A DNA stretch of 64,000 nucleotides from Candidatus Kapaibacterium sp. (GCA_026418625.1 JAOABA010000051.1:62001-126000), one strand, 5' to 3'; counted from the first letter of the stretch, positions 20,665 to 61,766 are shown. The notes: generated by a model not told the origin, from the letters alone. Translations and numbers: made by a program.

Positions 20665-20679
20665 ATCTTCGTCTTAGAA

Positions 20680-21093: not shown

Positions 21094-21102
21094 AATTTAT
21101 CC

Positions 21103-21465: not shown

Positions 21466-23016
21466 CTATAAAGGAATTAAACCGTGTTTTTTAGCAGGTC
21501 TCAATTCACGTTTATTTTTGAGTGATTCAAGAGCTATCGAGATATATTGTCTTGTGTATTTAGGCTCAATAACAGAATCAATCATTCCTATAGAAGCGGC
21601 AGAATAAGGATTAGCGTGTTCTTGATTATATCTCATTATTAATTCTTTTCTTTTCGCTAAAGGGTCAGTGGCTGTTTTTATTTCATCCTTATAAAGCACG
21701 CTTATTGCTCCTTCAGCACCCATAACTGCAATTTCAGCTGTGGGCCAAGCAGCTACACGGTCAGCTCCCAAGCTTTTTGCACTCATAGCGAGATAAGCAC
21801 CTCCGTAAGCTTTTCGAACGATTATTGAAATTTTTGGAACAGTCGCTGCTGAAAAAGAAAATAGCATTTTTGCCCCGTGTCTTATTATTCCGCCAAATTC
21901 CTGTTCGATTCCCGGCAGAAATCCCGGAACATCAACAAAAGATATAAGTGGAATATTAAAAGCATTGCAAAATCTAATGAACCTTGATGCTTTATCGGAT
22001 GCATCTATGTCGATAGCTCCATATTTCTCAATAGGCTGATTTGCAATAACTCCTACAACTCTACCATTAACTCGAGCGAAACAAATTATGATGTTCTTTG
22101 CGAAATGGCTCTGAATTTCCATTATTGAACCGGGATCAAAAATTCTTGTCAAAACTTCGAACATATCATAAGGGTCTCTTGGATCATCAGGAATGATTGT
22201 ATTAAGCGTTTCGTCCTCGATAAGCACAATTTCACCATTTCCTGCTACTGGCGGATCTTCCATATTATTTGAGGGAAGATATGTAAGCAAATTTTGGACA
22301 ATTTCGATGGCGTCTGCATCATCACGTGCGATAAAATGCACATTACCGCTAAATGTTGCCTGACTTAATGCTCCACCAAGTTCTTCAGCAGAAATTTCTT
22401 CTCCGGTTGCTTCCTTAATAACTTGCGGACCTGCAATGAAAAGCTGCCCAATTCCTTCCACCATTATTATGAAATCCATTAGTGCAGGTGAATATGCAGC
22501 TCCACCAGCGCAAGGACCAGCTATTATTGCTATTTGAGGAACAACTCCGGATAGAAGTGTATTATGATAAAAAATTCTACCATAACCTCTAAGAGAATAA
22601 ATACCTTCCTGAATTCTTGCACCACCGCTATCATTGATTGAGATAAATGGCGCTCCATTTTTCAGGGACATATCCATCATTTCGCATATTTTCCAAGAAT
22701 GCATCTCGCCAACACTTCCACCCATAACAGTGAAATCCTGAGAAGTTGCATAGGCAAGTCTTCCATTAATGGCTCCTATCCCAGTTATTACTCCATCACC
22801 GGGCAAAGACCCTGCTGAAATGTTATGTGAATGGATATTGCTAACGTGCTTATAGATTTCATCATAGAAACCACCATCGAATAGAAGGTGTAATCTTTCT
22901 CTGGCGGTCATCTTTCCGGACTGGTGCTGTTTGTTAATTTTATCAATTCCCCCACTCTCGAGTAATTTTCGCTCACGATTTCGGAGGTCTTCGATTTTTT
23001 TTTGGACCGATTCCAT
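21466..23016 (-). CDS. mmdA: Methylmalonyl-CoA decarboxylase carboxyltransferase (acyl-CoA carboxylase beta type)
   Basis: This 517-aa carboxyltransferase takes the carboxyl group from an acyl-CoA, probably (S)-methylmalonyl-CoA, onto biotin. Two crotonase-fold halves are visible: TARERLHLLFD, SGGARIQEG, GPCAGGAAYSPALMDF in the first, and FVDVPGFLPG, RKAYGGAYLAMSAK and AVMGAEGAISVL in the second. The start is placed at the ATG of MESVQKKIEDL (23016) rather than the in-frame start at 23037. It heads a four-gene operon (carboxyltransferase, gamma, biotin carrier, beta) that couples decarboxylation to Na+ export. Propionyl-CoA carboxylase is the alternative, but the pump subunits decide against it. 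Confidence 0.9.
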   Translation of the reverse strand: MESVQKKIEDLRNRERKLLESGGIDKINKQHQSGKMTARERLHLLFDGGFYDEIYKHVSNIHSHNISAGSLPGDGVITGIGAINGRLAYATSQDFTVMGGSVGEMHSWKICEMMDMSLKNGAPFISINDSGGARIQEGIYSLRGYGRIFYHNTLLSGVVPQIAIIAGPCAGGAAYSPALMDFIIMVEGIGQLFIAGPQVIKEATGEEISAEELGGALSQATFSGNVHFIARDDADAIEIVQNLLTYLPSNNMEDPPVAGNGEIVLIEDETLNTIIPDDPRDPYDMFEVLTRIFDPGSIMEIQSHFAKNIIICFARVNGRVVGVIANQPIEKYGAIDIDASDKASRFIRFCNAFNIPLISFVDVPGFLPGIEQEFGGIIRHGAKMLFSFSAATVPKISIIVRKAYGGAYLAMSAKSLGADRVAAWPTAEIAVMGAEGAISVLYKDEIKTATDPLAKRKELIMRYNQEHANPYSAASIGMIDSVIEPKYTRQYISIALESLKNKRELRPAKKHGLIPL

Positions 23017-23184
23017 ATTATTTAATTTTAAAAACAAGTCAGTTACAAAACTAAACAGAATTTATTTCAAGAAAAATTAATTATTATTCAAAGAATTTTC
23101 ATTTTACACTTAATTTTTAAATCCAAATTTATCATAAAAATGAATTGAATAGTAATAATATTTTCAACGGTCGCTTTGTGGTTA

Positions 23185-27696: not shown

Positions 27697-28281
27697 ATGA
27701 AAAATTTTGAATTAAAAATTAAGGACTCGATAACTTCAAGTATTGAAACCAAACAATCACTTTTAAAAGAATGTTCAGATGCAATATTAGAAACAGGATT
27801 ATTATTATCGGAATGCATAAAGCAGGGTGGTAAAATCCTCTTTTGCGGTAATGGAGGTAGTGCCGCTGATAGCCAACATCTTGCTGCTGAGCTGGTTATT
27901 CGATATAGAAGTAGTTTCAATAGACCTGCTATCCCGGGAATTGCTTTGACTGTTGATCCGTCAATTATGACAGCCGGTGGAAATGATATCGGGTTCGAAA
28001 ACGTTTTTGCAAGGGGGGTAGAAGCATACGGAAAGACAGGAGATGCACTTGTTGCAATATCAACAAGCGGTAATTCCGAAAATGTATTGAGGGCTTCAAA
28101 AAAAGCAAAAGAATTGGGTTTGAAAGTTATAGGGCTACTTGGTTGTGGTGGAGGTAAAATACTTGAAATTTGTGACTCTGCAGTAGTTGTTCCATCGGAT
28201 GTTACAGCAAGAATACAGGAATCTCATATATTGATAGGGCATATCTGGTGTGAAATTATAGAGGAATATAATTTTAGTTAA
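27697..28281 (+). CDS. gmhA: Sedoheptulose-7-phosphate isomerase
   Basis: This SIS-domain enzyme makes D-glycero-D-manno-heptose 7-phosphate, the first step to the heptose of the lipopolysaccharide core, and acts in the cytoplasm as a tetramer. Motifs: LFCGNGGSAADSQHLAAELV, the GGNDIGFENVFARGVEAYG loop, STSGNSENVLRA, and ESHILIGHIWCEIIE near the end. The length is 194 aa. It has a clear ribosome site (AGGGGG) 7 bases before the ATG. No other heptose gene is nearby. Confidence 0.93.
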   Translation: MKNFELKIKDSITSSIETKQSLLKECSDAILETGLLLSECIKQGGKILFCGNGGSAADSQHLAAELVIRYRSSFNRPAIPGIALTVDPSIMTAGGNDIGFENVFARGVEAYGKTGDALVAISTSGNSENVLRASKKAKELGLKVIGLLGCGGGKILEICDSAVVVPSDVTARIQESHILIGHIWCEIIEEYNFS

Positions 28282-28344
28282 TTTTTTTAGAAAAAGAATT
28301 TTCTTTATTTAAAAAAAATCATTAATTTTGTAATCTTATTTTTT

Positions 28345-28417
28345 GCCACTTTAGCTCAGCTGGTAGAGCAGCTGATTTGTAATCAGCAGGTCGTTGGTTC
28401 GAGTCCGACAAGTGGCT
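28345..28417 (+). tRNA. tRNA-Thr (anticodon UGU)
   Basis: Full cloverleaf: acceptor GCCACTT with AAGTGGC, D arm TAGCTCAGCTGGTAGAGCA, anticodon stem GCTGA/TCAGC with loop TTTGTAA (TGT), T arm GTTGG-TTCGAGT-CCGAC. The discriminator is U and CCA is not encoded. It sits between gmhA and the methyltransferase, a usual landing place for mobile DNA. No direct repeat of the tRNA 3' end is visible downstream within the restriction-modification segment. Confidence 0.96.
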
Positions 28418-28569
28418 CAAAAAAGTTAAAAAGAGACGATCTTTATTCATCAAAAAACTTTTATGAATGTTAAACCGCAAAGTTATTAATTCATTTTATC
28501 AAATTTGAATTACTTTTTATTTCCAATTCATTATATTTTACATTAAAACTATCAAAGCTTTAAAGAAAA

Positions 28570-29760
28570 ATGGAAATATTTCACCAACAAATTCAAAAAA
28601 TCAAAGATAAGTCAAAGAATCAAAATCATCTAAAATACTCAGATAAAATAAATCTCGGTGCTTTTTATACACCTAAAGAATATGTAAATATTGTCTGGAG
28701 TTTTATTAAGCCTTTTTTAAATGATGATAGTGTTGTTTTAGATAGTTCTTGTGGTTACGGTAACTTTTTTGATACCGAGGTGAATTGCAAAAAAATTGGA
28801 AATGATATTGACGTAATAGCAATTTCTCAAGCCAAAAAAAATTTTCAGGAATTGATAACTTTCAACAAAAATGCTTTATTTAATGTAAATCGTGATATGT
28901 TCAACATATCAAAGAATGATAAACTAATAATCATAGGAAATCCTCCTTATAATGATATAACATCAATCATTAGAAACCAAATAAAAACTAATAATTTTAG
29001 TATAGATGCGGACATAAAAACAAGAGATTATGGTTTATCATTTTTGTTATCTTATACTAAACTTGAACCTGAAATAATATGTGTTTTACATCCATTATCT
29101 TACTTAGTAAAAAAAACCAACTTTGATTTACTAAGAAAATTTACATATATGTATAAACTTATTGACGGAATAATTTTTGATAGTGCAACTTTTAAAGAAA
29201 CTTCAAAGGGCATTTCTTTTCCAATAATTATTGCCTTGTATAAAAGAGAAAGTTTGGGTATGCAATTTAATTATATATATAATTATAGATTCAAAACAAT
29301 TGAGAATAAAACTTTTTCATTAAGAGAATTCGATTTTATTACCAACTATATTAATAAATACCCATCAAAAGGTGTTAATCCAAAAGATAATGATATATTC
29401 TTTTGGACTATGCGAGATATAAATGCTTTAAAAAGAAATAAAACATTTGTTAATGATTTTAATGATAATACTATAATTATTGACAAAAGGAGGCTGGATT
29501 ATTATATATATATTGATGTATTTAAACAATTTAGCCATTATGTCCCATATTATTTTGGTAATCTTGATGTTTTTATTAACGATGAATCATTTCAAGCAAA
29601 TAAGGATTATTTTATTTTTGAATGTTTAACAAGACATTCTTTTCTAAATGACTATATAAAACACAACAAGAGTTCAACTTTAAAAGAAGCAAATGAGAAA
29701 ATTACTAATTATTTTAAGACTTTATTAGGAGAGCATTTTGTCCATCCAACTGATAAATGA
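28570..29760 (+). CDS. DNA adenine-N6 methyltransferase (gamma-class, type II)
   Basis: At 396 aa it starts with the N-terminal GAFYTPKEYVN segment typical of gamma-class N6-adenine methyltransferases. The SAM-binding motif I follows (VVLDSSCGYGNFFD, about residues 55-68), and the catalytic motif IV GNPPYND is at about residues 123-129. The C-terminal ~200 residues would be the target recognition region. It lies just after tRNA-Thr, with a partner gene overlapping its end by 23 bases. Base composition looks more AT-rich than neighbours (many ATA, AAT codons), a sign of transfer. The target sequence is unknown. Confidence 0.88.
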   Translation: MEIFHQQIQKIKDKSKNQNHLKYSDKINLGAFYTPKEYVNIVWSFIKPFLNDDSVVLDSSCGYGNFFDTEVNCKKIGNDIDVIAISQAKKNFQELITFNKNALFNVNRDMFNISKNDKLIIIGNPPYNDITSIIRNQIKTNNFSIDADIKTRDYGLSFLLSYTKLEPEIICVLHPLSYLVKKTNFDLLRKFTYMYKLIDGIIFDSATFKETSKGISFPIIIALYKRESLGMQFNYIYNYRFKTIENKTFSLREFDFITNYINKYPSKGVNPKDNDIFFWTMRDINALKRNKTFVNDFNDNTIIIDKRRLDYYIYIDVFKQFSHYVPYYFGNLDVFINDESFQANKDYFIFECLTRHSFLNDYIKHNKSSTLKEANEKITNYFKTLLGEHFVHPTDK

Positions 29761-30514
29761 GAATAGTAAAACCATAAAAGTGAAAATTCCTTTAACAACA
29801 TCAACTGGGAAAATACGAATTAAACAAAGGGATAATATCTATGGTTATGGCCAACCTTTTCCAAGCAAATCTATGAATTTTAATCAAAAAAACTATGTAG
29901 AATGGCAAATTAGCTATGATATTGAAGAAAATAATGAAAAAATTAATTTTTCTGTTTTAAAACAGTATAAATTTATAGCTCACAATGGGAAAAATAAATT
30001 ATTATTTGAATTAAGTGAATATCTTTATCACTTAATAAACTTTGGATTAATATCTCTCTTACAAATAAAAAAATTAAAAAATTTTATTAATAATTTAACT
30101 GAAAATGAATTGTTATCAAACCATCCACATTGTGAGATTAAAAGAACTCACCCTAAGATTCAAAAAATTAATGATTTAAATTTTGAAATACTTAAAGTTG
30201 AATATCCACAATTAATATACAGATTTAAAAACTATTAAGTCATCGCAGAAATAATTATTAAGGAAAAGCAAAAAGCGGTTGGGGTACAACCTATGCTTTT
30301 TTTCTGTTTCCCAATAACCGAATTAATTGCAGATGTACCACTATTGGGTAGAACAGCTAAAACAAATGAATATTCGTATTTCGAGATAAACAATAACAAC
30401 TCATTTGTCTTCTTTGAAATTACAAAAATTTTTGGGATGTTAAGCCCAAACCACAGGTTTGATATTTTGGAGATATTAAATTTACTCTTACAAATCTTCG
30501 AAAATAAAACTTAA
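29738..30514 (+). pseudogene. Probable restriction endonuclease gene interrupted by an in-frame TAA
   Basis: The first open part (29738-30238, 166 codons) starts with TTG behind an AGGAG site, overlapping the methyltransferase end. A single TAA at 30236-30238 ends it. The same frame then stays open for 91 more codons, through VIAEIIIKEKQK and an apparent ATG at 30293, to the stop at 30512-30514. The second part (LLGRTAKTNEYSYFEI, FVFFEITKIFG) reads as normal protein. A full product would be ~258 aa, a usual size for a type II endonuclease. I do not recognise the family and see no certain PD-(D/E)XK motif; the role is inferred from pairing with the methyltransferase. It may be a true pseudogene or a sequencing or assembly error. 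Confidence 0.55.
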
Positions 30515-30539
30515 AAAATATAATATTAGTTCATAATTT

Positions 30540-33188
30540 TTATATTTCTCTGATTTTTAAGCCCGGGATAGGATTTCCACTTAGAAATTCCTCCACAAAA
30601 ACATCTATATGTTTATCGGAAACCATAAGAACGTCCACGTTTCTGACAGCTCCCATTAATTTACCAATATCAACTAAAAGCTCATAAATCATTTCAGTCG
30701 GTATTTTTCTGATTCTTGCAATCACATTATCATCATTTATTGTTACAGAAAAGTTTTTCGCTTCAAGGATTTTAGCTATTGCCTGAGCTCTTCTTGATTT
30801 TCTTGTTATGTTGGATGCACCACCTCGGAAGTTAAAGTTAATGTAGTTACTATTTGTCTCACTCGATGCAAAAGCATCTAATCTTGAAAAATGATAGCCT
30901 AATCGTGAGAAAAAATTAATGTAATTTTCGGAGATTAAAGCGTAACTTCTTGAACCGAGACTAACATCAGACCTATCTGGATCAACAATATTTCCAAGAA
31001 TGATTCCTGCAAAACCACGAGTGTCAATTGGAAGATGACCTGACCATTTGAGTCCGGGGGTTGTCATTCCCTTGATTAAATATTGCATTGGTTTGGAAGT
31101 AATATCATTTGGCGTAATTTTATTACCCTTAATATCATTTTTCAAACCGCCACCTAAATCTATAACTAAAATATCCAAAGGAACATCGAAAATCAGTTTA
31201 TAGGTTTTCCCAGAATCAATGTTTGTATTGTCATAAATCGAAAAAATAGTTCTCATTGCAAGTTCGTGAATGAATCTTATTATATCGTGAATTGTCTCGC
31301 AATGAGCTGGACTGAATTTTTCTGATGATGGGTCATATAAATTAAGCTTAAAGATGTTTCGGGTTAAATTATGCCATATCTTGTAAATAGGACTATTTAA
31401 ATAAGGATTTTCATTGATTTTGTTATTATTTTTTTCTTCAACTAATTCAGGTATTATTCCTTCGTAAACTCTTGTTTCATCGGCAAAAACAGTTACTTCA
31501 ACTCCATTAGTTAAAATTCTGCTTGAATTGATTGTATTAGTTATTACAGGAATATTCAATTCTCTCGCTATGATTGCTAAATGGCCTGTGGTGCTGCCAA
31601 AATCAGAAATCAATGCTGACATTTTATGAATAGCTGTTATAAATTCAGGCAGATTTTTCTTTGCAACAACAACTGACCCATAAGGAATTTGGGCAACTTC
31701 TTTGGGGGTATTTACAATAAAAATTTTACCGTATCCAATCCCGTGACTTGCACAATCTCCTGAATTAATCAGAACTTTATACTTCTTATCAAATTCTGAT
31801 ATAGAGATTTGTTTCTTAGTGTTTAATTTTATTCTCTCTCTAATCTTTAGATTTCTGGATTGTAAAATAAAAATTTCACCATTGGTATCAATTGCCCATT
31901 CAATATCCTGCGGATGTTGATAACGGGTTTCAATTATTCTTGCGTAATTAATCAGCTTTTTTATTTCATCATTTGATAAGTTCGGGTCCGTTAAATTAAC
32001 ATTGTTCAAGAAAGTCTTATTACTATCAGAGCTTTTGTTCAATGCTGTTCTCAACAGATTTTGATTTCCGGGATTGAAATCAATTTTTAATTCTCCATTA
32101 TTGTTAATAATAATATATTGTTGAGGTTGAACTTTGCCTTCAACAACTAAAGAACCAAGTCCCCAAACTGATTGAATGATAATTCCATCCTTTAAATCAT
32201 TTGGATCTCTGGTGAAAAGCACCCCTGCACATTTAGCATTTACCATTTTTATACAACCAGCAGCCATTGGCATATCTTCATCCCTTAAACCTGATAAATA
32301 ACGATAAATTACAGATTGAGGGGAATATTTTGAAATTAAAACATCTATAACAGCATCAAAAACATTGTCGCGAGTGATATTTAGAAAACTTTGATGCAAA
32401 CCAGCAAATGAATGCTTTTCTGAGTCTTCTCCTATGGCACTTGAACGAACGGCAACTAAAGTATTTTTATCATTAAATGTCTCGTCGTATGCCTCCAAGA
32501 TAATTTTCTCAAGATAATCGGGCAACTGTGTTGTTATGATTAAAGCCTGTGCTTGACGGGAAGCATATTGAACTTGGGAAATGTCATTAAAATCAGTATC
32601 AAAGAAAACTTCATTCTTTTTATTTCTTAGGTTTTCTATTCTCATTATATCTTCAAAAAAACGGACTGAAATGCAAAAACCATCAGGGACTGGGAGTTTT
32701 AATCTATTTTTGATTTCACCCAATCGAGCCATTTTATGCCCGACTTCGAGAAAATTTTCTTCTCTGATAGATTTAAGATTATAGGTGTAAGGTATTTTTG
32801 TAAACAAATCATCAATTCTTGTGCAATATTGACAGTCCAAATCAGGGCAAACAAGTTCTTCTGGACAGGTAATTCTGGGTGTTAAGGCTTTATAACATTT
32901 ATCTGTGATGACTCTCAATTTTTCAAGTAATAATCTATATTTCCCACCAGTTAAGAAAATTAGATTATGACTCATTCTTTTAGTTGTTTCCAGAAGAATA
33001 TTTAATCTTTTCTGAGCATATCCACGGGAAAAAGGATTTCCGAGGACAATCATATCTGCCAGTTCCGACATCGCTTTATGTGCTTCATCGTTATCAGCAA
33101 GTATCTCCTGAAATTTTCTAAATTTTTCTTGAAAACTAACATTGTTTTCTTTTTTGTTTCGAACAATATTTTTAAAAAACTTAATCAT
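30540..33188 (-). CDS. PEP-synthase-like ATP-grasp/phosphohistidine protein
   Basis: The 882-aa protein starts at the ATG 33188 (MIKFFKNIV); an in-frame TTG lies 18 bases earlier. The N-terminal ~125 residues are unassigned and end with four cysteines (C108, C114, C119, C122), a possible metal site. Next is the pyruvate-phosphate-dikinase ATP-grasp domain (~150-450: VAVRSSAIGEDSE, GVLFTRDPND, HPQDIEWA), then the swivelling phosphohistidine domain (~480-580: TTGHLAIIARELNIPV, His about 536). The C-terminal TIM barrel that binds PEP/pyruvate is absent. In its place is an unassigned ~270-residue domain (NFRGGASNITRKSRRA). It could phosphorylate an unknown acceptor from ATP. It is the last gene of the transport/phosphorelay unit, 79 bases after tauE. 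Confidence 0.82.
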   Translation of the reverse strand: MIKFFKNIVRNKKENNVSFQEKFRKFQEILADNDEAHKAMSELADMIVLGNPFSRGYAQKRLNILLETTKRMSHNLIFLTGGKYRLLLEKLRVITDKCYKALTPRITCPEELVCPDLDCQYCTRIDDLFTKIPYTYNLKSIREENFLEVGHKMARLGEIKNRLKLPVPDGFCISVRFFEDIMRIENLRNKKNEVFFDTDFNDISQVQYASRQAQALIITTQLPDYLEKIILEAYDETFNDKNTLVAVRSSAIGEDSEKHSFAGLHQSFLNITRDNVFDAVIDVLISKYSPQSVIYRYLSGLRDEDMPMAAGCIKMVNAKCAGVLFTRDPNDLKDGIIIQSVWGLGSLVVEGKVQPQQYIIINNNGELKIDFNPGNQNLLRTALNKSSDSNKTFLNNVNLTDPNLSNDEIKKLINYARIIETRYQHPQDIEWAIDTNGEIFILQSRNLKIRERIKLNTKKQISISEFDKKYKVLINSGDCASHGIGYGKIFIVNTPKEVAQIPYGSVVVAKKNLPEFITAIHKMSALISDFGSTTGHLAIIARELNIPVITNTINSSRILTNGVEVTVFADETRVYEGIIPELVEEKNNNKINENPYLNSPIYKIWHNLTRNIFKLNLYDPSSEKFSPAHCETIHDIIRFIHELAMRTIFSIYDNTNIDSGKTYKLIFDVPLDILVIDLGGGLKNDIKGNKITPNDITSKPMQYLIKGMTTPGLKWSGHLPIDTRGFAGIILGNIVDPDRSDVSLGSRSYALISENYINFFSRLGYHFSRLDAFASSETNSNYINFNFRGGASNITRKSRRAQAIAKILEAKNFSVTINDDNVIARIRKIPTEMIYELLVDIGKLMGAVRNVDVLMVSDKHIDVFVEEFLSGNPIPGLKIREI

Positions 33189-33267
33189 AATAAAAATGGC
33201 TGTCAATATATTAAATGACTAAAGAAATATCATTTTTATTTGACAGCCAGTGTTATAAAATACAAAA

Positions 33268-34299
33268 TTAACTATGCATCTTTTTTTCTTTATAGGCAGC
33301 TGAAATTAGTTTAATGGTAATTATTACACACATTAAAGTAGCTGAGCCCATAATCACAATACCTGAGGCTAATTTCAATTCAGGAATATTAAATTGAACT
33401 TGAACTTGTTTCAAAATAACTGATATTCCCGCAAAAAGAATCATTAAAGCAAAAAGGAGTCTAATACCATAGCCACGAATGTATTTTACTGCTGTAACTC
33501 CAATTTGAGCTCCAATTGCTGCACCTACAAGCATTAAAATCGCTGCTATTAAATCTGTTCTTCCTTTGAGAGAATAAGTAAAACAACCATAGGCACCATC
33601 AAGCATAACGATAAATAAATCTGTTCCAACAGCAACAGCAGTTGGTAAACCGAACATATAAATTAGGGTGGGCATTCTTATAAAACCACCGCCAACACCA
33701 AGAAAGCCAGATATGAAACCTGCGAGGAAAAAAACAAAAACTATTGTCCAAATAGAAATTGAAGCAATATTTGATCTTGGGAAATTAACCATTGGTGGAA
33801 TTTTTATATCTCTTATTTTTTCAACTAAAGATTTTTTGTTTGATACTATCCCTTCTTTTGCAGCTTCTTCTCTTTTTTTGCGGATTACAGCATAATCATA
33901 TATCATAAAAATGCCTAATCCAATAAGCATAAAAATATAAACCCATCTAACAATTGATTCAACTAAACCAATCCTTTCCAGAAACATAATAACTTGAGCG
34001 CCGACTTCCACACCGGGTATTGTGCCTATCATCGTGAAAAAGCCAAGTTTCCAATCAACATTACCCATTTTATTATGTTTCTTGGTTGATACTATCGATT
34101 TTCCAAAGATATGAGCAAAATCGGTCCCAATTGCATAAGGCATAGGAAATCCAAAAATATTAAGAGCAGGCGTAACAATCCAAGCACCACCAACTCCAAA
34201 AAAACCACCCAAAACACCAACACAGAATCCAATTGTAACTAATAAAAGCAGATTGAAATTTTGCTGAGCTATCGGTAAATATATGTTAAATATATCCAT
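33268..34299 (-). CDS. TauE/SafE-family anion exporter
   Basis: This 343-aa membrane protein has two homologous halves: GFCVGVLGGFFGVGGAWIVT with YAIGTDFAHIFGKS, and GFISGFLGVGGGFIRMPTLI with AVAVGTDLFIVML. Family members export sulphite, sulphoacetate or related organosulphonates. A strong AGGAGG ribosome site precedes the ATG. The preceding gene (99 aa) ends 11 bases upstream, and a REC-fused anion symporter lies in the same unit, so an anion cycle is plausible. The substrate cannot be told from sequence. Confidence 0.9.
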   Translation of the reverse strand: MDIFNIYLPIAQQNFNLLLLVTIGFCVGVLGGFFGVGGAWIVTPALNIFGFPMPYAIGTDFAHIFGKSIVSTKKHNKMGNVDWKLGFFTMIGTIPGVEVGAQVIMFLERIGLVESIVRWVYIFMLIGLGIFMIYDYAVIRKKREEAAKEGIVSNKKSLVEKIRDIKIPPMVNFPRSNIASISIWTIVFVFFLAGFISGFLGVGGGFIRMPTLIYMFGLPTAVAVGTDLFIVMLDGAYGCFTYSLKGRTDLIAAILMLVGAAIGAQIGVTAVKYIRGYGIRLLFALMILFAGISVILKQVQVQFNIPELKLASGIVIMGSATLMCVIITIKLISAAYKEKKMHS

Positions 34300-34310
34300 T
34301 ATATTCCTCC

Positions 34311-34610
34311 TTATTCGTGATGAGCAATTTTTGAAACATCAAGTCCAAATATTTTGAGAACTAAGTCAGTTAGAACTCCGATTAAATATCCTACGATTCC
34401 CATTGTTGCAGTAACCAAGAGAGCAAATAACAATTTGTCATCATTATATAGTTGAGCTAACCAAAGAGAAATACCAGATAAATTATCTAACGGAACTTGA
34501 TTGGGAATCGGTTCTCCTTCGCCACCACCACCGGCAAATGCTAAATAAGTAGGAAAGAAAATGAAAACTAAATACAAAGACGAGTAAAGCAATTTTCGAA
34601 TAAACTTCAT
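34311..34610 (-). CDS. Small exported membrane protein in the anion-transport unit
   Basis: Not recognised. At 99 aa it has a signal peptide (LYSSLYLVFIFFPTYLAFA), a glycine-rich mature start (GGGGEGEPIP), a loop with NLSGISLWLAQLYNDD, one transmembrane helix (LLFALLVTATMGIVGYLIGVLTDLVL) and a short tail. It has a GGAG ribosome site. Its position directly before the TauE/SafE gene suggests an accessory subunit of that exporter. Confidence 0.65.
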   Translation of the reverse strand: MKFIRKLLYSSLYLVFIFFPTYLAFAGGGGEGEPIPNQVPLDNLSGISLWLAQLYNDDKLLFALLVTATMGIVGYLIGVLTDLVLKIFGLDVSKIAHHE

Positions 34611-34735
34611 CTTTTACTCCAAAAAAATTAAAAATAATTAATAAACTTTGAATTAAGATTAACGTAAATTAGAACATTAAAAAAGCTATAACAAGGATTA
34701 ATATGATATTGTAACCAAATTGTTTATTTATTTGA

Positions 34736-36436
34736 TTATTTTTTATAAGGAAGTTTAATAGTAAAAATTGTTCCTTTGCCAAGCTCACTTTTGACATCTA
34801 TCGAACCACCTAAATTTTTTACTATTGAATAACTTACTGATAGTCCAAGTCCGGTTCCTTTACCAACAGGCTTGGTTGTGTAAAAGGGTAGAAATATTTT
34901 AGATAATTGTTCATCCGTCATTCCACAGCCGTTATCTTCAACCTCGATAATAATTGATTCATCATCATAGTCTGTTTTTATTATTATTTCTCCTTCGGAT
35001 TTTATAGCGTCGTGTGCATTATTTATGAGATTAATTATTACTTGCCTCAATTGATTGCTCGAAGTAATAATACTCGGAATGTCTGTATTAAATTTTCTTG
35101 TAATTTTTATATTATCAATATTTAATTCTCTTTCAAAAAATCCACTGATTAAATCATCAATCAATTCATTCACATTAACTACAGTCTCAGACTCATCTCT
35201 TTGCCTAACAAAAGTCAGTAATTTTTTATTAATATCTTTAATCCTATAAATTGCAGTATTAATTTTTTTAAAATGTGGTTCAAGTTCTTCTATTTTTAAA
35301 TTGTATCCAAATTTAGGATCAATATAATCCTGCATCAGGCCAATCTCGTTAGCAATAATATTCAAAGGATTACCAATTTCGTGAGCTATTCCTGAGGCTA
35401 ATTCACCAACAGTTGCTAATTTTGATGCTTGTTCAAGCTGCAGCCTAACTAATATTCTTTCTTTTTCAATTTCAACAATATTTTTTGATCTAAAAAAAAT
35501 AATTAACACAAGTAGAATAATAATTGCTAAAGAGGCAATAATTAGCGTTACTTGTTGATTGAAAAATGATTGCATTGACTCTTCTTTTTCAATAGTAATA
35601 ACTGCCCAATTTACTTCATTGAGGCGGGAAAATGCAAACTTTCTTTTATTTTTTTCCAAATTGTAATGTGAAATCCCCAAATTTTCGTTTTGTGGAACTT
35701 GAAAAGGTGATGCTTTCATTGGTTCAGAAATATGTTTTGGAGCAAGCTGAATCAAACCACTTTGATTTATGATTAAAATATTTACATCTTTTGCTTTTTC
35801 AGTTGATGTCATATAACTATAAATTTTTTGAGGATCTAAAGATACTCGAAAAACATAATGTTTTCCATTAATTACTTTTTTAACTCCTATTGTAAAATGT
35901 GGTGCTTTTCTGAATCCAAGATAGATATCAGTTATGATAAATTTTTTCTCAGAACTAATTAAGTTTTGAAACCAAACCTCATTTTTATAGTCCTTGTTTA
36001 TAAGTTGAGGAAGTGGTCCAGAGTATAGCTTTTGAATTGAAGTTGTGTCGAAATAACCTATATCAGTAAATGCATCATTGTTCTTCTTTAAATTGACAAA
36101 AATTTTATGGATTGACATTGAATCAAGTGGGTATTTAAGCTCAGGGTTTTCAATAGCATTAACTACATTATTCACTCTTTCGATGAGATATATATCTAAT
36201 AATCTTGACTTGCTTTCTGCTATTGATTGTAGGTGTAATTCCCTGCTTTTGCTCATTAAATCATTATACTGATAAAAAAAATAAGATATTAGCAGAAAAA
36301 GAGGCAGGACATAAATTAAAATCAATCGAATAAAATAATTTCTTCGCATTGTGGAGAACATCTTTTTAGTATGTGGGTTATCAATAAGCTCACTTACTAA
36401 AGTTTTAAGATATTCTGACTGTTCTCCAGTTTTCAT
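34736..36436 (-). CDS. Cache-type sensor histidine kinase
   Basis: This 566-aa kinase has two transmembrane helices (~36-55 and ~297-316) flanking a ~240-residue extracytoplasmic sensor that looks like a double Cache domain (NDAFTDIGYFD, WFQNLISSEKKFIITDIYLG, VFRVSLDPQ). It has no HAMP domain. The HisKA H-box is GIAHEIGNPLN (about H352), and the ATPase motifs are NLINNAHDAI, EDNGCGM, FYTTKPVGKGTGLGLS. Cache domains usually bind small organic acids or amino acids. The kinase lies 30 bases after a lone receiver and after a receiver-transporter fusion, its likely phosphorylation targets. Confidence 0.9.
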   Translation of the reverse strand: MKTGEQSEYLKTLVSELIDNPHTKKMFSTMRRNYFIRLILIYVLPLFLLISYFFYQYNDLMSKSRELHLQSIAESKSRLLDIYLIERVNNVVNAIENPELKYPLDSMSIHKIFVNLKKNNDAFTDIGYFDTTSIQKLYSGPLPQLINKDYKNEVWFQNLISSEKKFIITDIYLGFRKAPHFTIGVKKVINGKHYVFRVSLDPQKIYSYMTSTEKAKDVNILIINQSGLIQLAPKHISEPMKASPFQVPQNENLGISHYNLEKNKRKFAFSRLNEVNWAVITIEKEESMQSFFNQQVTLIIASLAIIILLVLIIFFRSKNIVEIEKERILVRLQLEQASKLATVGELASGIAHEIGNPLNIIANEIGLMQDYIDPKFGYNLKIEELEPHFKKINTAIYRIKDINKKLLTFVRQRDESETVVNVNELIDDLISGFFERELNIDNIKITRKFNTDIPSIITSSNQLRQVIINLINNAHDAIKSEGEIIIKTDYDDESIIIEVEDNGCGMTDEQLSKIFLPFYTTKPVGKGTGLGLSVSYSIVKNLGGSIDVKSELGKGTIFTIKLPYKK

Positions 36437-36466
36437 ATTATAATTTTAAAAAACTTAGCATCGCTA

Positions 36467-36883
36467 TCAAATATCAGATTCACCAAACATATCATTAATT
36501 GAACCAGATTTTTGATTTTTTTTGCTCGCTTTAACTGCTAAATTTATCACTGAAATTAGTTTATCAATTTCAATGGGTTTAGTAATATAAGAAAACGCTC
36601 CTAATTCTAAAGTTTTCGATGCTACTTCTTCCGAACCGTGAGCAGAATAAATAATTATTTCTGTGTTTTTCTTGTTTTTCTTGATTTTTTCTAAAACTTC
36701 CAACCCATCAATTCCGGGCATTTTAAGATCAAGCACAACAACATCGAAATCACTTTTTTCTAATAAATCTAAAGCTTTATAGCCATCAGGGGCTTTGGAA
36801 ACTTCAAAGCCCCTGAGTTCCATTCTCTTTGTTATTGTATCAAGAAAATCTAATTCATCATCAACTATTAACAATTTAATCAT
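36467..36883 (-). CDS. Single-domain response regulator (receiver only)
   Basis: The 138-aa protein is a full receiver with acidic residues in LIVDDELDF, phospho-Asp in VVLDLKMPG (about D52), Ser in IIYSAHGSEE (about S80) and Lys in YITKPIEID (about K102), plus a short tail. There is no DNA-binding or enzymatic output. It is clearly similar to the receiver at the front of the adjacent transporter fusion (ITKRMELRGFEV versus ITKRLEMRNYKV), so the two arose by duplication. A phosphate sink or shuttle role is inferred. Confidence 0.9.
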   Translation of the reverse strand: MIKLLIVDDELDFLDTITKRMELRGFEVSKAPDGYKALDLLEKSDFDVVVLDLKMPGIDGLEVLEKIKKNKKNTEIIIYSAHGSEEVASKTLELGAFSYITKPIEIDKLISVINLAVKASKKNQKSGSINDMFGESDI

Positions 36884-36914
36884 TTGTTAAATTAAGAGAT
36901 ATTTTCCTATTAAA

Positions 36915-38702
36915 TTAAATTGCATATCCTAAAATTTTAAAAATGATGGGCCAATAAAATTCCATCAATATTACCATCAAGGCACACAAAATTAATGTTT
37001 TAGGTATGGCAACTTTAATAAAATCCATTTGACTAAAATACCCAGTGCTATAAGATATTATTGATGGTGGACATCCTATAACCAACATAACAAATGACGT
37101 AGTTACTGGCAAACTCAAAGCTGTAAATACTCTATTTAATCCAATGTCTATAGCTAAGGGATCCAGTATAGGTAAGCATAAAGCTGTCGCAGCAGAATTA
37201 CTCATAAAACTAGTAATAATAGAGGCAAAAATTGCAATGCTGTAATAGGTTACAAAGTGACCTTGTCCTTTGATTAAAGGGAAGAATTGTTCGGCTAACC
37301 ACTTACCAGCACCAGTATCGAGCATTGCTATTCCAAGAGAAACACCTGCACCAAAAACTAACCAAGCTTCCCAAGAAAACTTTTGAATAACAGTTTTAAT
37401 TGTAACAAATTTAAAACTAAATATTGCTATCAAAGCTATTGCAGCTACAACGCTAACGTGGAGCTTTGTTAAATCTGATAGAGTCCAGAAAATAATCGCC
37501 AAAACAAATATAATACTGACACCTTTTTCATTTCTTGTCATAGGAGGCATTTTTTCTGCTTTGATTTCAGCTGGGAATTCTTTTACTCTCGGTGGCATCA
37601 TTAACCAGCAAACTGCCCAAGTTGCAAGTGATGAAACAATTACCATCGGCATCATCATAATTATCCAATCAAGGAAGCCAATATGAACCCCAATATGCTT
37701 CTCAATAAATTCCAAAGCAATAGGATTTCTTCCACCACCAAGGATAGTTCCAAAACCACCTGCTGAGGCTGTTAGTGGAATCATAATTGTAAAAAACTTG
37801 GCAAAATTATTTGTTTTATCAACAGTGATACCCATTTTAAAGAAAACTGGTATAACAGCAAATAAGAAGATGATTGTTATGGTTGCATCATGAAAAACAG
37901 CTGATGTTATTGATGAAGTCAAAGCAACAACTAAACTGAATTTTAATACATTAGTTCCGGCAATTTTTATTGAATAATAGAGAATTCTTTTAGCTATTCC
38001 TACTTCGTTCAAAATCACACCGAACATTATGATCATCATAACAAACATAACAGCTGGATTGGCAAAAGGTTCCCAAGCTTGAGCAGGTTTCTGTATTCCT
38101 AAAAGGACTAAGCCACCTCCAGCTATGAAAGCTGTTGCCCCGATAGGAACTGCTTCGGTAACCCAAAGCAAAACCACAGTGGTTAAAAGAGCAAGAAATA
38201 TTTGGGCTCTCTCAGAAATACCACCTAAAGGCAAGAGATAAACAATAACACCAGCGAGGACAGAAATAGAAAATAGTAGTAGTGTTTTTTTCCAGGTTGT
38301 TTCCTTAGTTACTTCCTCATGCTCAGATATTAATAGTTTCGCTTTAGCTCTTGCATCGTCAATAATTTTAATGAGCTTATCAATTTCAGCTGGTTTCTGC
38401 AGATAGGTGAAAGCATCAAGCTTTGCCATTTCAACTGCTGATTCAGTTGAACCATGCCCTGTGAGGATTATAACTTGAATATTTGGTTTTTGAGATTTTA
38501 TTCTTTTAAGGACTTCTTCACCGGGAATATCCGGCATTTTCAGGTCCAAAATTACAACATCAATATCTTTCTCTTGCTTTATTAATTGTTCAATATCTTT
38601 CCCAGAGTCCTTGGAGATGACTTTATAATTTCTCATTTCGAGTCGTTTAGTAATGGACTCAAGAAAATCTTTTTCATCATCAATGATTAACAGTTTTGGC
38701 AT
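36915..38702 (-). CDS. Receiver domain fused to a DASS-family Na+/anion symporter
   Basis: Residues 1-~118 form a complete receiver: LLIIDDEKDF, phospho-Asp in VVILDLKMPD (about D53), Thr in ILTGHGS (about T81), Lys in YLQKPAEID (about K103). After a ~30-residue linker comes a divalent anion:sodium symporter (SLC13/DASS, ~12 helices): TEAVPIGATAFIAGG, NPAVMFVMMIIMFG, TASAGGFGTILGGGRNPIAL, and ITSFMSNSAATALCLPI near the end. These membrane transporters import dicarboxylates, sulphate or similar anions. The fusion implies that transport is switched by phosphorylation. The ATG overlaps the upstream CBS gene stop as TAATG, indicating translational coupling. Confidence 0.92.
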   Translation of the reverse strand: MPKLLIIDDEKDFLESITKRLEMRNYKVISKDSGKDIEQLIKQEKDIDVVILDLKMPDIPGEEVLKRIKSQKPNIQVIILTGHGSTESAVEMAKLDAFTYLQKPAEIDKLIKIIDDARAKAKLLISEHEEVTKETTWKKTLLLFSISVLAGVIVYLLPLGGISERAQIFLALLTTVVLLWVTEAVPIGATAFIAGGGLVLLGIQKPAQAWEPFANPAVMFVMMIIMFGVILNEVGIAKRILYYSIKIAGTNVLKFSLVVALTSSITSAVFHDATITIIFLFAVIPVFFKMGITVDKTNNFAKFFTIMIPLTASAGGFGTILGGGRNPIALEFIEKHIGVHIGFLDWIIMMMPMVIVSSLATWAVCWLMMPPRVKEFPAEIKAEKMPPMTRNEKGVSIIFVLAIIFWTLSDLTKLHVSVVAAIALIAIFSFKFVTIKTVIQKFSWEAWLVFGAGVSLGIAMLDTGAGKWLAEQFFPLIKGQGHFVTYYSIAIFASIITSFMSNSAATALCLPILDPLAIDIGLNRVFTALSLPVTTSFVMLVIGCPPSIISYSTGYFSQMDFIKVAIPKTLILCALMVILMEFYWPIIFKILGYAI

Positions 38703-39268
38703 TAGGTCCCTTTCTTATTTTTGTTACATGAGTGAATTATATAATGTTCAATTGAGTCATATATATCAGAAAGTCGGATTATTCCAACAATTTCTTCACC
38801 CTTAGAGACAAGAATGGATAAGGTCTGCCACATTATAAGTTTATGAATGGCTTGTGCAATTGTTTCATTTTCTTCGATTCTTTGTTCAATTGGATTCATT
38901 ATTTCTTTGCATTTCGTGTTTGAGGCTATGGTGCAAAGATCAAGCGGATCATCCATCCATAAATTATAGCTTTCAATCATAGAGTCAATAAACCCTTCAC
39001 TCAGGCTTAATCTTGAAAGCTTTTCAGTATCGAAAAACTTTTGATATTTTGGTTCAAGAGCTTTTAAAAAGGAAATATAACCTATTTTACCAACAATTTT
39101 TCCTTCGTCGTCCTTTACCAAAACTGCTCGATAGTTTTGCTGGTTTTCTGGAATATTTTCGTTCGCTTTATTTAGAGCAACTAAGGCATCATACATTGTG
39201 CTGTCCTGATGAACGGTTGGGTATTGTGCAACAGGGATCATTAATTCTTTGACAAGCTTTCTATACAT
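38702..39268 (-). CDS. Two-CBS-domain regulatory protein
   Basis: The 188-aa soluble protein has two CBS motifs: VKELMIPVAQYPTV with the strand YRAVLVKDDEGKIVG, and CKEIMNPIEQRI with SILVSKGEEIVGIIRLSDI. CBS pairs bind adenine nucleotides (AMP, ATP, c-di-AMP) and commonly gate transporters or enzymes. It is the first gene of the unit and overlaps the transporter start, so it is probably an energy-state sensor for the symporter. It has a His/Asn/Lys-rich tail. Confidence 0.9.
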   Translation of the reverse strand: MYRKLVKELMIPVAQYPTVHQDSTMYDALVALNKANENIPENQQNYRAVLVKDDEGKIVGKIGYISFLKALEPKYQKFFDTEKLSRLSLSEGFIDSMIESYNLWMDDPLDLCTIASNTKCKEIMNPIEQRIEENETIAQAIHKLIMWQTLSILVSKGEEIVGIIRLSDIYDSIEHYIIHSCNKNKKGT

Positions 39269-39642
39269 TTCTACCTCGTATTTATTTAAAATAGATTATT
39301 TTTTCTAATCAGTAAAAATTATTGATAAAAAAATACTTTATTACATATTAGTTGCAATTTATAATTGCTTTAACTCGATAACAATTCAGTATTTAAGATT
39401 GTAATCGGTGTGTTGTATTTGATTTATCACTTTTAAAATTTATCTCTCATCGAAAGAAACGATTTTTCTCAAATTGAAATTTTTTCTATACATTTAAGTT
39501 TTTGTAACTAAACACAATGATATTTTTTTTAGCTTTTTGTTTGAATAACACAATCAAGTTGAGATTGTTCTCATAATTTTTTTGTGATTGTTGCTCAATG
39601 ATTTAATTTTGTCTGATTATTAGTAATATATTTTTATTGAAA
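39269..39642. other. Divergent intergenic region, 374 bases
   Basis: No gene or RNA seen. It must hold the promoter of the minus-strand transport/phosphorelay unit and probably that of the plus-strand membrane protein. Weak dyads (ATCG/CGAT near 39450, GAGA/TCTC near 39563) are present. No sigma-54 type GG-N10-GC element was found by eye. Confidence 0.5.
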
Positions 39643-41190
39643 ATGCGAAATAAAGCTGTTTACTTTGGTTCTTTGCTTGTTATTGTTTTGTTGTATATAT
39701 ATGCTTCGAATTATAAGCTAACACCACCAATTTATAAAATCCAAAAATATGATTTTAAAAATGAGCAAGAGTCATTATTAAAACCAAATTTTGAAGATAT
39801 AGATAAATTTGAGAATATTTTATATTCCAGAAATTTAAATAGAGATAGCTTAAGTTATCTTATACTTGACAGCATAGTAAACGCCAGAATTACTGACAGA
39901 GACAGGTATTTAGCCGATCTTGATCTAAAAAATTATGTGTTAGAATCAAAGAAAGACAGTTTAATCATTGTTAGTAAACCCAAAGAAATTGAATTTGTCA
40001 AGGATATTATTAATGCTAAGTATTTTGAAAATTTACCAGAAAAATATAATCCTTTTATAAAAAAGAATGATTATAACGATGTTATTTTATTTATGAAAAA
40101 CGAAGATATTGCCTTAGATCTTGCCTCTTTAAACTGGAATAAAAGCAAAAACTATTATTTTATAACAAATGAAAATTATAATAATGGTTTGTTGGTCCGT
40201 AAATTAGATGAACTTTATTCCACAGATGAATTATTGGATAAAAATGTTTCTATTTCCTTCTCTGATGCCATTCCTGAAGAAATATTATATCCCTACTCAA
40301 CAAAAAAATATTGGCTTATTCCAATTTTTATAATTGCAGCACTTTTTCCGGTATTTTTGTCAATAAAAAATAAGCTTTTCTCAAAACAAAAAAAAGAATA
40401 TTACAACCCTCAAAGAACAGTTGCAATAGTCTGGATGATATTAGCTTTTCTATTTTTATTAGTTGTTCTATCTGTAATAGTATTGGAGATAGATATCAAT
40501 GAGGGTGGTGGGGCAATGATTTTTCTTGGGCTTTTTTTGTTCGTTGTAAGTATTATAGTGTTCTTAATATATTTAACAAGAGCAATTCAATTCGATAGAA
40601 TATATAAAGCTTTAGATCCAGCGAATGACGATAGTGAAGATGAATTAATACTCGCTAAATGGACTTATGATAAAGCATTTTGGGATGAATTTATTAATGT
40701 TGATATGAGAGAGAAATTATCTACAAATAAATCTTTATTTATCATAACAACTATTTTGATTGTTATTATATTCGGTTATTTTATGATTGAAGACACAGAA
40801 ACAGCACCATATATAGGATTAGCTGGTTTAGCTTTTATTATTTTTCTTTTTTTAATTTCAAGATTAACTCCTGTTTTGTCAGCAAGAAGACTAAAAAACT
40901 CTAATCCGGAATGTATAATAACAAGAACAGGATTAATTCTTGGCAAACAATTTCATAACTGGAGTTCTATGGGAACACGACTTGAGTCAGTAAGGTTTAC
41001 GCAGGACGAACAAGCAATGTTAGAAATAATTTATTCTTATCCGGGAAAGGTTACAAGGTCAAATTATACAATATTAGTTCCTGTGCCACCTGATCAATTA
41101 AAAAAAGCAAAGGAAATAGTAGAAATATTAGAGAATGAAATAAAATTTCTAAACAACTCAAAGAGCAGCTTTAAATATTTTAGTAAATAG
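39643..41190 (+). CDS. Hypothetical multi-helix membrane protein
   Basis: Not recognised. The ATG at 39643 (MRNKAVYFG) is preferred over the in-frame TTG 6 bases earlier. The order is: an N-terminal helix (AVYFGSLLVIVLLYIYAS); a ~190-residue extracytoplasmic domain rich in charged and aromatic residues; then helices at about residues 225-245, 265-285, 293-315, 365-385 and 390-410. A final ~100-residue cytoplasmic part has a PH-like strand pattern (ECIITRTGLILGKQFHNW). Its layout resembles other bacterial proteins with a PH-like end, but no name can be given. Confidence 0.65.
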   Translation: MRNKAVYFGSLLVIVLLYIYASNYKLTPPIYKIQKYDFKNEQESLLKPNFEDIDKFENILYSRNLNRDSLSYLILDSIVNARITDRDRYLADLDLKNYVLESKKDSLIIVSKPKEIEFVKDIINAKYFENLPEKYNPFIKKNDYNDVILFMKNEDIALDLASLNWNKSKNYYFITNENYNNGLLVRKLDELYSTDELLDKNVSISFSDAIPEEILYPYSTKKYWLIPIFIIAALFPVFLSIKNKLFSKQKKEYYNPQRTVAIVWMILAFLFLLVVLSVIVLEIDINEGGGAMIFLGLFLFVVSIIVFLIYLTRAIQFDRIYKALDPANDDSEDELILAKWTYDKAFWDEFINVDMREKLSTNKSLFIITTILIVIIFGYFMIEDTETAPYIGLAGLAFIIFLFLISRLTPVLSARRLKNSNPECIITRTGLILGKQFHNWSSMGTRLESVRFTQDEQAMLEIIYSYPGKVTRSNYTILVPVPPDQLKKAKEIVEILENEIKFLNNSKSSFKYFSK

Positions 41191-41324
41191 ACAAAAAAAC
41201 TAAAATTATTTCTCAAATTAATAAAAATCAACTGAAAAATTTATTTTTTTTGCCGATTAAAATTGTGTAACAATTAAGTTTGTGCAATAAAGTATTGAAA
41301 AAAGCTAATAAACATACTTTTTCT

Positions 41325-41332
41325 TATATTTG
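41325..41332 (+). promoter_or_regulatory. Bacteroidota-type -7 box before the chaperone-usher genes
   Basis: TATATTTG matches TAnnTTTG and would start transcription near 41339, ~34 bases before the chaperone ATG. The upstream TTG (41294) is too far for ideal -33 spacing, so the call is tentative. Confidence 0.42.
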
Positions 41333-41372
41333 TAATTTGTAATTTTTTGATAATAAAGAAAAATAAATAGCT

Positions 41373-42203
41373 ATGAAAACTAAATTAGTAATTATAACCT
41401 TCTTAACCCTATTTAGCATAAATGAATTGTTCTCTCAAATTGGTGTTTACCCACCAATTCTGTTCATCAATCCTTTAAGTAGGGGTGGAATGGTAACTCT
41501 AACCAATACTGGTTATTCGGATAAGGAAGTCGAAGTAATATTTCGCTTTGGTTATGTTGGAAATGATGAGAATGGCAATCATAAATTAATTTACAATGAT
41601 ACTCTTTTAGAAGAGCAATATTCTCTTGTTCCTTATATAAAAGCATTTCCCAAAAAAATTATCATTAAACCCCAGAAACAACAAGTCGTTCGATTTTTAG
41701 TAAGAAATATTAGTGATAAACCCGATGGAACATACTGGACGAGAATGGGAATAAGATTTAGAGACCCAGCAAAGCCAGTTACAAAAGCAGAAGACACATC
41801 GAAGATTACCGCTGCAATAGAATTGGTAGCTGAAGTTAACACTCTTATAATGTTTCAAAAAGGCGCAGTTAATGCAGGAGTTGATATACCATTTATTAAT
41901 ACATTAGCAGTTGGGGACACTTTTAATTTATATGTAAATTATGAAAGATTGGGAAATAGTCCATTTATGGGAAATGTTACGCTTGGTATTTACGATAGCA
42001 AGGGTGATCCAGTTGAAACTTATAGCGAAAAATTAGGTGTTTTCAAAACTTTATTAAGGCGTTACTCATTTGAAAAGGATTACTTTCCACCGGGCAATTA
42101 TACTGTTGAATTTACTATAACAAACGAGCGAGATGATGTCCCAGAAAAAAACACACTAAAATTCAATGTTTTAACTAAGAAATTTACATTTGAAGTGAAA
42201 TAA
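41373..42203 (+). CDS. PapD-like periplasmic chaperone
   Basis: Signal peptide (LVIITFLTLFSINELFSQ), then two immunoglobulin-like domains. The first opens with GVYPPILFINPLSRGGMVTL and contains the strand IKPQKQQVVRFLVRN and TYWTRMGIRF of pilus-chaperone-type proteins; the second begins near INTLAVGDTFNLYVN. Classical chaperones cap pilin subunits and deliver them to an outer-membrane usher. The next gene encodes an usher-like barrel, which supports the call. No pilin subunit gene is recognisable nearby. The length (276 aa) is slightly more than PapD. Confidence 0.75.
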   Translation: MKTKLVIITFLTLFSINELFSQIGVYPPILFINPLSRGGMVTLTNTGYSDKEVEVIFRFGYVGNDENGNHKLIYNDTLLEEQYSLVPYIKAFPKKIIIKPQKQQVVRFLVRNISDKPDGTYWTRMGIRFRDPAKPVTKAEDTSKITAAIELVAEVNTLIMFQKGAVNAGVDIPFINTLAVGDTFNLYVNYERLGNSPFMGNVTLGIYDSKGDPVETYSEKLGVFKTLLRRYSFEKDYFPPGNYTVEFTITNERDDVPEKNTLKFNVLTKKFTFEVK

Positions 42204-57782: not shown

Positions 57783-57783
57783 A

Positions 57784-58482: not shown

Positions 58483-58496
58483 TTTCTTCCAAAATA

Positions 58497-59255: not shown

Positions 59256-59262
59256 ACAACAA

Positions 59263-60543: not shown

Positions 60544-60544
60544 A

Positions 60545-61726: not shown

Positions 61727-61766
61727 TTTTGTTAAATGACACACAGTAAAATTACTAATAATGATT

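Follow-up and report, generated by a model that had tools for sequence, protein, structure and literature searches.

A response-regulator receiver fused to a divergent DASS transporter in a candidate sulfate-uptake unit of a Kapabacteria-type bacterium

The DNA analyzed here (the window) is a stretch of 64,000 nucleotides from Candidatus Kapaibacterium sp. (GCA_026418625.1, JAOABA010000051.1:62001-126000), in which positions 30540 to 39268 hold seven consecutive minus-strand open reading frames (ORFs) encoding a two-component signaling system together with two transporters. A preliminary description, made from the sequence alone, had named seven such genes, and ORF and domain searches recovered all of them with the following positions and contents, given in amino acids (aa) where lengths apply.

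38702 to 39268, minus strand: CBS-domain protein, 188 aa, a putative adenylate sensor (PF00571, 40.3 bits)
36915 to 38702, minus strand: receiver-DASS fusion, 595 aa, with a receiver at aa 1-120 and a DASS transporter at aa ~140-588 (PF00072 and PF00939)
38544 to 38546, minus strand: codon of D53, the predicted phospho-acceptor of the fused receiver (residue listing)
36467 to 36883, minus strand: stand-alone single-domain receiver, 138 aa, without an output domain (Response_reg match)
34736 to 36436, minus strand: membrane histidine kinase with a dCache sensor, HisKA (H352), and HATPase_c (Pfam domains)
34311 to 34610, minus strand: small exported membrane protein, a distant relative of the DVU0150 family (NF040783, 56.7 bits; cut-off, 70)
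33268 to 34299, minus strand: TauE/SafE (TSUP) transporter (PF01925, 165.3 bits, above the Pfam cut-off)
30540 to 33206, minus strand: phosphoenolpyruvate (PEP)-synthase-like protein, 888 aa, here called PPDK-like (PPDK_N, 268 bits; PEP-utilizers, 49 bits)

From the CBS gene to the PPDK-like gene, the intergenic spacings are -1, 31, 30, 125, 11, and 61 bases. The CBS protein, receiver-DASS fusion, single-domain receiver, and dCache kinase are an old four-gene core, and the DVU0150-like, TauE, and PPDK_N genes make up a second module, found repeatedly next to the core. Because the same gene order is kept in other genomes, as detailed below, it is not a product of chance, and the earlier view of the seven genes as one functional unit is supported. 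A search of window positions 28000-42000 against Rfam returned a tRNA as its sole match and no known riboswitch, and a promoter and terminator scan found promoters not in excess over shuffled sequence.

The central protein of this unit is the fusion, a single 595-aa frame that holds both Response_reg (89.7 bits) and Na_sulph_symp (164.4 bits; Pfam cut-off, 27). Its score for TIGR00785, the "dass" subfamily, was 195.9, just under the cut-off of 198.6, and the transporter part is filed here only as a divergent DASS-superfamily protein. The acid pocket of the fused receiver is complete (D8, D9, D53, T81, and K103); the phospho-aspartate had been placed at about D53, and residue listing identified D53 as the predicted acceptor, which is invariant in 8 of 8 fused receivers aligned. 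An AlphaFold2 model of the fusion (predicted local distance difference test [pLDDT], 76; predicted template-modeling score, 0.70) sets the receiver immediately N-terminal to membrane helix 1; the linker around residues 126-135 is poorly modeled. The transporter part of the model resembles VcINDY, NaDC3, and NaS1 (Foldseek E values of 1e-12 to 1e-14, the lowest being 2.7e-14), and its sequence identity to solved DASS proteins is ~20%. Across 15 aligned homologs, the first of the SNT sodium-site motifs reads HDA in all and the second reads SNS (SNT in one). Relative to locus L009, the receiver and DASS parts of the fusion are both 76% identical, and relative to L012 they are 64% and 62% identical, respectively, while the stand-alone receiver reaches 60% and 53%. 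The fused receiver is conserved about as well as the DASS part and more than the stand-alone receiver, which indicates genuine constraint on it. In a tree, the fused and the stand-alone receivers make up two separate clades with matching splits. A plasmid search with the fusion protein gave no match.

The signaling residues of the partner proteins are likewise in place. The stand-alone receiver has an intact acid pocket (D8, D9, D52, S80, and K102), and residue listing gave residue 352 as the phospho-acceptor His of the kinase, whose dCache_1 match is 35 bits, under the cut-off of 45. A Pfam search of the seven proteins detected neither an HPt domain nor a hybrid kinase; therefore, the arrangement is a branched two-component system, with one kinase leading to two receivers, and not strictly the phosphorelay that it had been called. 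The lack of a DNA-binding output, also claimed at the outset, was borne out, as one receiver is a 138-aa single-domain protein and the other is attached to DASS. In the core operons examined, the receivers are single-domain proteins too short for a DNA-binding domain.

To follow the core across genomes, the fusion protein was scanned against 84,980 species genomes. The order CBS, receiver-DASS, receiver, and kinase is found in L009, L010, and L012-L015; L008 has CBS, receiver-DASS, and receiver genes, its contig ending inside the last of these. On the contigs of L012-L015 the four-gene core occurs without a TauE or PPDK-like gene, which speaks against the earlier suggestion of an import/export pair serving exchange or overflow. 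A CBS ortholog lies immediately upstream of the DASS gene in L008-L010 and L012-L015, and also in L018-L023, where DASS is unfused. In L016-L023, which come from sulfate-reducing Proteobacteria/Desulfobacterota and relatives, the DASS protein is 48-54% identical and has no receiver attached; a CBS gene usually stands upstream and a single-domain receiver often downstream. Receiver-CBS fusions are present in L019 and L134. The dsrA-positive genome G625 (L133) encodes a 692-aa receiver-DASS protein from another DASS branch. A single origin of all fused DASS proteins was rejected by an approximately unbiased test (p=2e-6, with long branches present), and identities of 27% versus 49% agree. These trees indicate that the receiver-DASS fusion evolved at least twice.

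One genome, G426, carries a DASS gene without dsrA. Its plain DASS (L139:8499-10610) is nested in the fused clade beside a peroxiredoxin 87.5% identical to that in L012, and no receiver, CBS, stand-alone receiver, or kinase gene was found within the 20 kb examined around it, nor was dsrA found in the genome. Given this nesting, G426 was taken as a secondary loss and rejected as an exception; its control module seems to have gone together with the sulfate-reduction pathway. Two other observations concern the DASS neighborhoods. L011:1481-8089 is an implausibly long 2202-aa frame in which an unknown N-terminal part of ~1660 aa precedes the C-terminal half of a receiver and DASS, perhaps through an assembly fault or gene decay. 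Receiver-kinase hybrids lie directly beside DASS genes in L129:6149-7390 and L133:5455-7500, both from Desulfobacterota-type genomes, and such genomes with hybrid kinases may possess true multi-step relays.

The genome of the window, that of an uncultured Bacteroidota bacterium, is 3.3 Mb in size and 96% complete, and its closest named relatives are Kapabacteria and Ignavibacteria assemblies. Proteins scoring over curated cut-offs for sat, aprB, aprA, qmoC, dsrA, dsrB, and dsrC are encoded in one cluster on contig C19, along with a DsrK-like protein that fell below its cut-off (298 versus 400). An 88-aa ORF after dsrB, at the position of DsrD (L100:10991-11257), had no family match in Pfam or NCBIfam, nor any convincing match among PDB chains, and was left unassigned. 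Kapabacteria of family UBA2268 have been described as carriers of reductive-type Dsr (PMC10591310), and sulfate reduction has been predicted for "Ca. Thermonerobacter thiotrophicus" (PMC6338057). In view of the sat-apr-qmo-dsr genes and these published descriptions, dissimilatory sulfate reduction is very probable for the host, as judged from its gene content.

The distribution of the DASS protein follows that of dsrA. Searching with the DASS domain led to 17 genomes, each with dsrA over its cut-off (17/17); L024 was left out of this count, as only its receiver matched. Within the host's class (197 genomes), 9 genomes carry dsrA, and the fused unit occurs in 2, both dsrA positive, versus 7 dsrA-positive genomes among the other 195 (Fisher p=0.002). 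Within the phylum of Desulfomicrobium (218 genomes), the DASS subtype occurs in 8, all among the 108 that are dsrA positive (Fisher p=0.003); numbers are small in both tests and the genomes are not independent. Queries with the whole fusion scored few candidates per genome, probably because they were crowded by receivers, and were rerun with the DASS part alone. The class result was the same, and the count for the phylum of Desulfomicrobium went up from 1 genome to 8, under an E-value limit that was also slightly looser.

Published transcripts bear on the same question. According to Thiel et al. (PMC6338057), transcripts of a "predicted sulfate transporter," MS gene 000020_7, track dsr transcripts over the day-night cycle, and 000020_4 encodes a peroxiredoxin with daytime expression. 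Scaffold MS_under00020, which is L012, reads, in contig direction, peroxiredoxin, kinase, receiver, and receiver-DASS. As this order fits genes 4 to 7, 000020_7 appears to be the hot-spring ortholog of the fusion. Some DASS genes also respond to sulfate level, according to PMC5840216. Since the host carries the pathway and the module tracks dsrA, the transported anion is most likely sulfate; the "sulphur or dicarboxylate anion" of the preliminary description can be narrowed to that extent.

The PPDK-like protein of the second module starts with a new N-terminal domain bearing a Cys motif (C114-C120-C125-C128), continues with an ATP-grasp PPDK_N domain and a phospho-His swivel domain (H542), and ends in a new C-terminal domain that replaces the PEP barrel. 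Its ATP-grasp and phospho-His motifs are invariant. Its PRK06464 score is 324 versus 598 bits, the match stopping at residue 599, and no Pfam barrel domain for PEP binding was found in its 888 aa. The missing barrel and the short model score rule out a PEP synthase, so that of the earlier label the ATP-grasp and phospho-His domains hold and the enzyme assignment does not. Homologs occur in 10 of 18 searched genomes, many aligning over the C-terminal part as well; an AlphaFold2 fold computed from 4 sequences reached a pLDDT of 44, and the result was discarded. The four-Cys motif (C-x5-C-x4-C-x2-C in the window), a possible metal or redox site, is seen in Kapabacterial/Ignavibacterial PPDK-like proteins (the window, L009, L010, L104, and L106) and was not found in Desulfobacterota homologs. 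PPDK-like genes occur in pairs at L104, L106, L110, L111, and L114; a simple motif search found the phospho-His motif in one member and not in the other, which suggests an active enzyme with a putative pseudo-enzyme partner.

The genes of this module keep company in varying layouts. The DVU0150-like gene adjoins TauE in L010 and L102-L109. L102 and L103 contain a DUF4881 lipoprotein, TauE, DVU0150, a divergent sigma-54 activator, and PPDK; L104 and L106 contain PPDK, TauE, DVU0150, a divergent PPDK, a kinase, and a response regulator; and DVU0150, TauE, and PPDK-like genes also recur together in L107 and L108. L113 reads kinase, TauE, small gene, PPDK, and response regulator, and L117 reads TauE and CBS, then PPDK, response regulator, PPDK, kinase, and two response regulators. 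CBS-DASS is close to two PPDK genes in L019 and L110, and the PPDK-like gene directly follows the kinase in L009 and L010. The preliminary description had proposed searching genomes for receiver-DASS, TauE, and PPDK-like genes together: L010 has both modules joined, with the complete set of the unit's genes, and L109, from the genome of L008, has kinase-DVU0150-TauE in the order of the window. Immediately upstream of the joined modules, L010:1102-3990 encodes glutamyl-tRNA reductase, an NAD-binding siroheme-synthase-like protein, and a tetrapyrrole methylase, plausibly for siroheme synthesis supplying the cofactor of DsrAB.

From the gene content, the intact signaling residues, the host pathway, the co-occurrence, and the recurrent fusions observed in these sequences, we propose that the unit is a sulfate-uptake system of a putative sulfate-reducing Kapabacteria-type bacterium, in which the kinase gates the transporter via the fused receiver; we give this reading a probability of roughly 60%. 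The DASS domain would import sulfate with Na+, feeding the Sat-Apr-Dsr pathway. The dCache kinase would sense an extracellular solute (sulfate or a related anion) and transfer the phosphoryl group of H352 to D53 in the receiver part of the transporter. It would also phosphorylate D52 of the stand-alone receiver, whose probable role is to compete for phosphate, to act as a sink for it, or to dock on the same complex. The activity of the transporter would respond directly to phosphorylation, so that uptake could be set up or down with no change in gene expression. The CBS protein is proposed to join this complex, as receiver-DASS and receiver-CBS fusions both exist, and to add an inside signal, plausibly AMP/ATP or adenosine 5'-phosphosulfate, whose levels would follow sulfate activation. 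The TauE-DVU0150-PPDK-like genes would form a second transport module under parallel control.

The simplest interpretation is that signaling acts directly on the transporter, because the fusions are recurrent and the core receivers are single-domain only; with the receiver-CBS fusions and the loss in G426, these features favor control of the transporter by phospho-Asp. The earlier expectation that signaling probably ends at the transporter thus gains from the independent receiver-DASS and receiver-CBS fusions. In its fullest form, the proposal would have the transporter gated, without transcription, by Asp phosphorylation of its own receiver, a device that arose in sulfate reducers on two or more occasions, and information on energy state would reach the same complex from the CBS and PPDK-like proteins; to all of this taken together we assign slightly less than even odds.

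Several points weigh against our proposal. The 17/17 dsrA set was gathered by similarity, not at random; 7 dsrA-positive genomes of another family in the host's class are without the fused unit; and the linkage to dsrA among Proteobacteria partly reflects lineage. An identity of ~20% to solved DASS proteins cannot tell sulfate from dicarboxylate. The host has at least two other DASS genes, one lying about 38 kb away from the dsr genes on C19 and one with TrkA_C on C41, and the fusion therefore need not be the main sulfate importer. The published DASS-kinase-CBS cluster was interpreted as transcriptional control (PMC11887813). As regards the other DASS genes themselves (L099:8857-10377 and L101:5657-7456), they are candidate sulfate or organic anion carriers.

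Three other explanations were considered. Transporters acting as co-sensors are well known, as in DctA-DcuS and Pst-PhoU-PhoR, and the fusion could work in this manner, drawing phosphate from the kinase or inhibiting it through the fused receiver, with the output elsewhere, in the stand-alone receiver or a distant transcription factor. The sharing of one kinase by two receivers, the hybrid receiver-kinases beside DASS genes in L129 and L133, which imply dense kinase-transporter traffic, and the transcriptional output proposed in PMC11887813 are consistent with such reverse signaling; however, the core operons examined contain no DNA-binding protein, and fusion to a receiver capable of phosphorylation ordinarily marks an output rather than a sensor, which together make this explanation unlikely. 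Import of an organic anion, such as a C4-dicarboxylate, by a system merely common in sulfate reducers would agree with the nearest solved relatives, which include the dicarboxylate carriers VcINDY and NaDC3 at an identity too low to reveal substrate, and with the TSUP/PSE transporters of D. vulgaris, which have no known substrate and two of which are co-regulated with lactate genes (PMC4641369). We nevertheless regard it as improbable, as dsrA is present in 8/8 carriers of the 218-genome sample and in both fused-unit genomes of the class, the hot-spring ortholog appears to be transcribed in step with the dsr genes, and published DASS sulfate clusters have the same architecture.

It is also conceivable, if doubtful, that the four-gene sulfate core and the TauE-DVU0150-PPDK-like genes are adjacent independent units, the latter with another substrate, an arrangement compatible with the core of our proposal. 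The modules are found apart (L012-L015 without TauE or PPDK on the contig, and TauE modules without DASS in L104-L108), a 125-base gap separates the kinase gene from the DVU0150-like gene, and the TauE module of L102 and L103 adjoins a sigma-54 activator. Set against this, the window and L010 have the modules joined, as does, through the kinase-DVU0150-TauE order of L109, the genome of L008, and PPDK-like genes stand right after the kinase in L009 and L010 and near CBS-DASS in L019 and L110.

Other genes of the window were also noted. Positions 19531-23037 (minus strand), 7.5 kb from the unit, encode an OAD beta subunit, a biotin carrier, a small gamma-like subunit, and a carboxyltransferase, and such Na+-translocating decarboxylase genes are a possible source of the Na+ gradient for a DASS symporter. 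Positions 56016-62579 (minus strand) read by eye as a phosphate uptake cluster with PstS, PstC, PstA, PstB, PhoU, and a HAMP histidine kinase, of which the kinase alone was checked for domains. Two overlapping ORFs at 28570-30238 (plus strand), near the tRNA at 28345-28417, gave no match in Pfam; the first contains NPPY, a motif characteristic of adenine DNA methylases, and the two are possibly a restriction-modification pair.

Dissimilatory sulfate reduction begins with the entry of sulfate into the cell, yet PMC5840216 stated in 2018 that no study had identified the sulfate uptake proteins of sulfate reducers. A transporter with its own receiver makes the matching of uptake to energy state directly testable on one purified protein. 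The fusion also argues that the kinase, receiver, and CBS genes around DASS genes of sulfate reducers act on the protein itself instead of on promoters, and it adds Bacteroidota to the groups in which the system is found. A DASS/kinase/receiver/CBS sulfate cluster was already published in 2025 (PMC11887813), and to that degree the unit is not without precedent; that paper mentions neither the receiver fusion nor TauE, the PPDK-like gene, or Bacteroidota. New here are the receiver fused to the transporter, the receiver-CBS fusions, the single-domain-only output, and the joint loss of receiver, partners, and dsrA in G426. A literature search, limited to an open-licence library and so weak as evidence of absence, turned up no account of any such receiver-transporter fusion. 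The survey of candidate sulfate transporters in PMC5840216 lists DASS group Cii proteins of up to 691 aa and does not mention receivers; given the 692-aa fusion found here, some of these may be receiver fusions.

Compared with VcINDY and NaS1 (SLC13), the fusion shares the predicted transporter fold and differs in its ~20% identity, its extra N-terminal receiver, and HDA in place of the first SNT-type sodium motif. The PPDK-like protein has the ATP-grasp and phospho-His swivel domains of PEP synthase and pyruvate phosphate dikinase, with intact motifs, but no PEP barrel, a new C-terminal domain, and an extra N-terminal domain with the Cys motif. The DVU0150-DVU0146 operon of D. vulgaris (PMC4641369) resembles L102 and L103 in having a DVU0150-family gene, then TauE, and a PPDK-like gene by an activator; unlike the window unit, it is under sigma-54 transcriptional control by the activator DVU0151 and has no receiver fusion. 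In "Ca. Thermonerobacter thiotrophicus," 000020_7 is by gene order an ortholog (L012, 60% identity), receiver fusion included, for which the main text of PMC6338057 gives the transcription pattern alone and describes no fusion or operon partners. The closest published counterpart is the sulfate cluster of Desulfobacteraceae and other sulfate reducers (PMC11887813, Sci Adv 2025), which combines DASS, a Cache sensor kinase, receivers, and CBS proteins, with the Cache domain suggested to sense sulfate, CBS to sense adenylates, and a transcriptional output drawn; its main text makes no mention of a fusion, TauE, a PPDK-like gene, or Bacteroidota. The window unit shares with it the DASS, Cache kinase, receiver, and CBS genes, a host with the sulfate-reduction pathway, and sulfate as the proposed substrate, and differs in belonging to Bacteroidota, in being compact, in having a receiver fused to the transporter and single-domain receivers only, and in the attached TauE-DVU0150-PPDK-like module.

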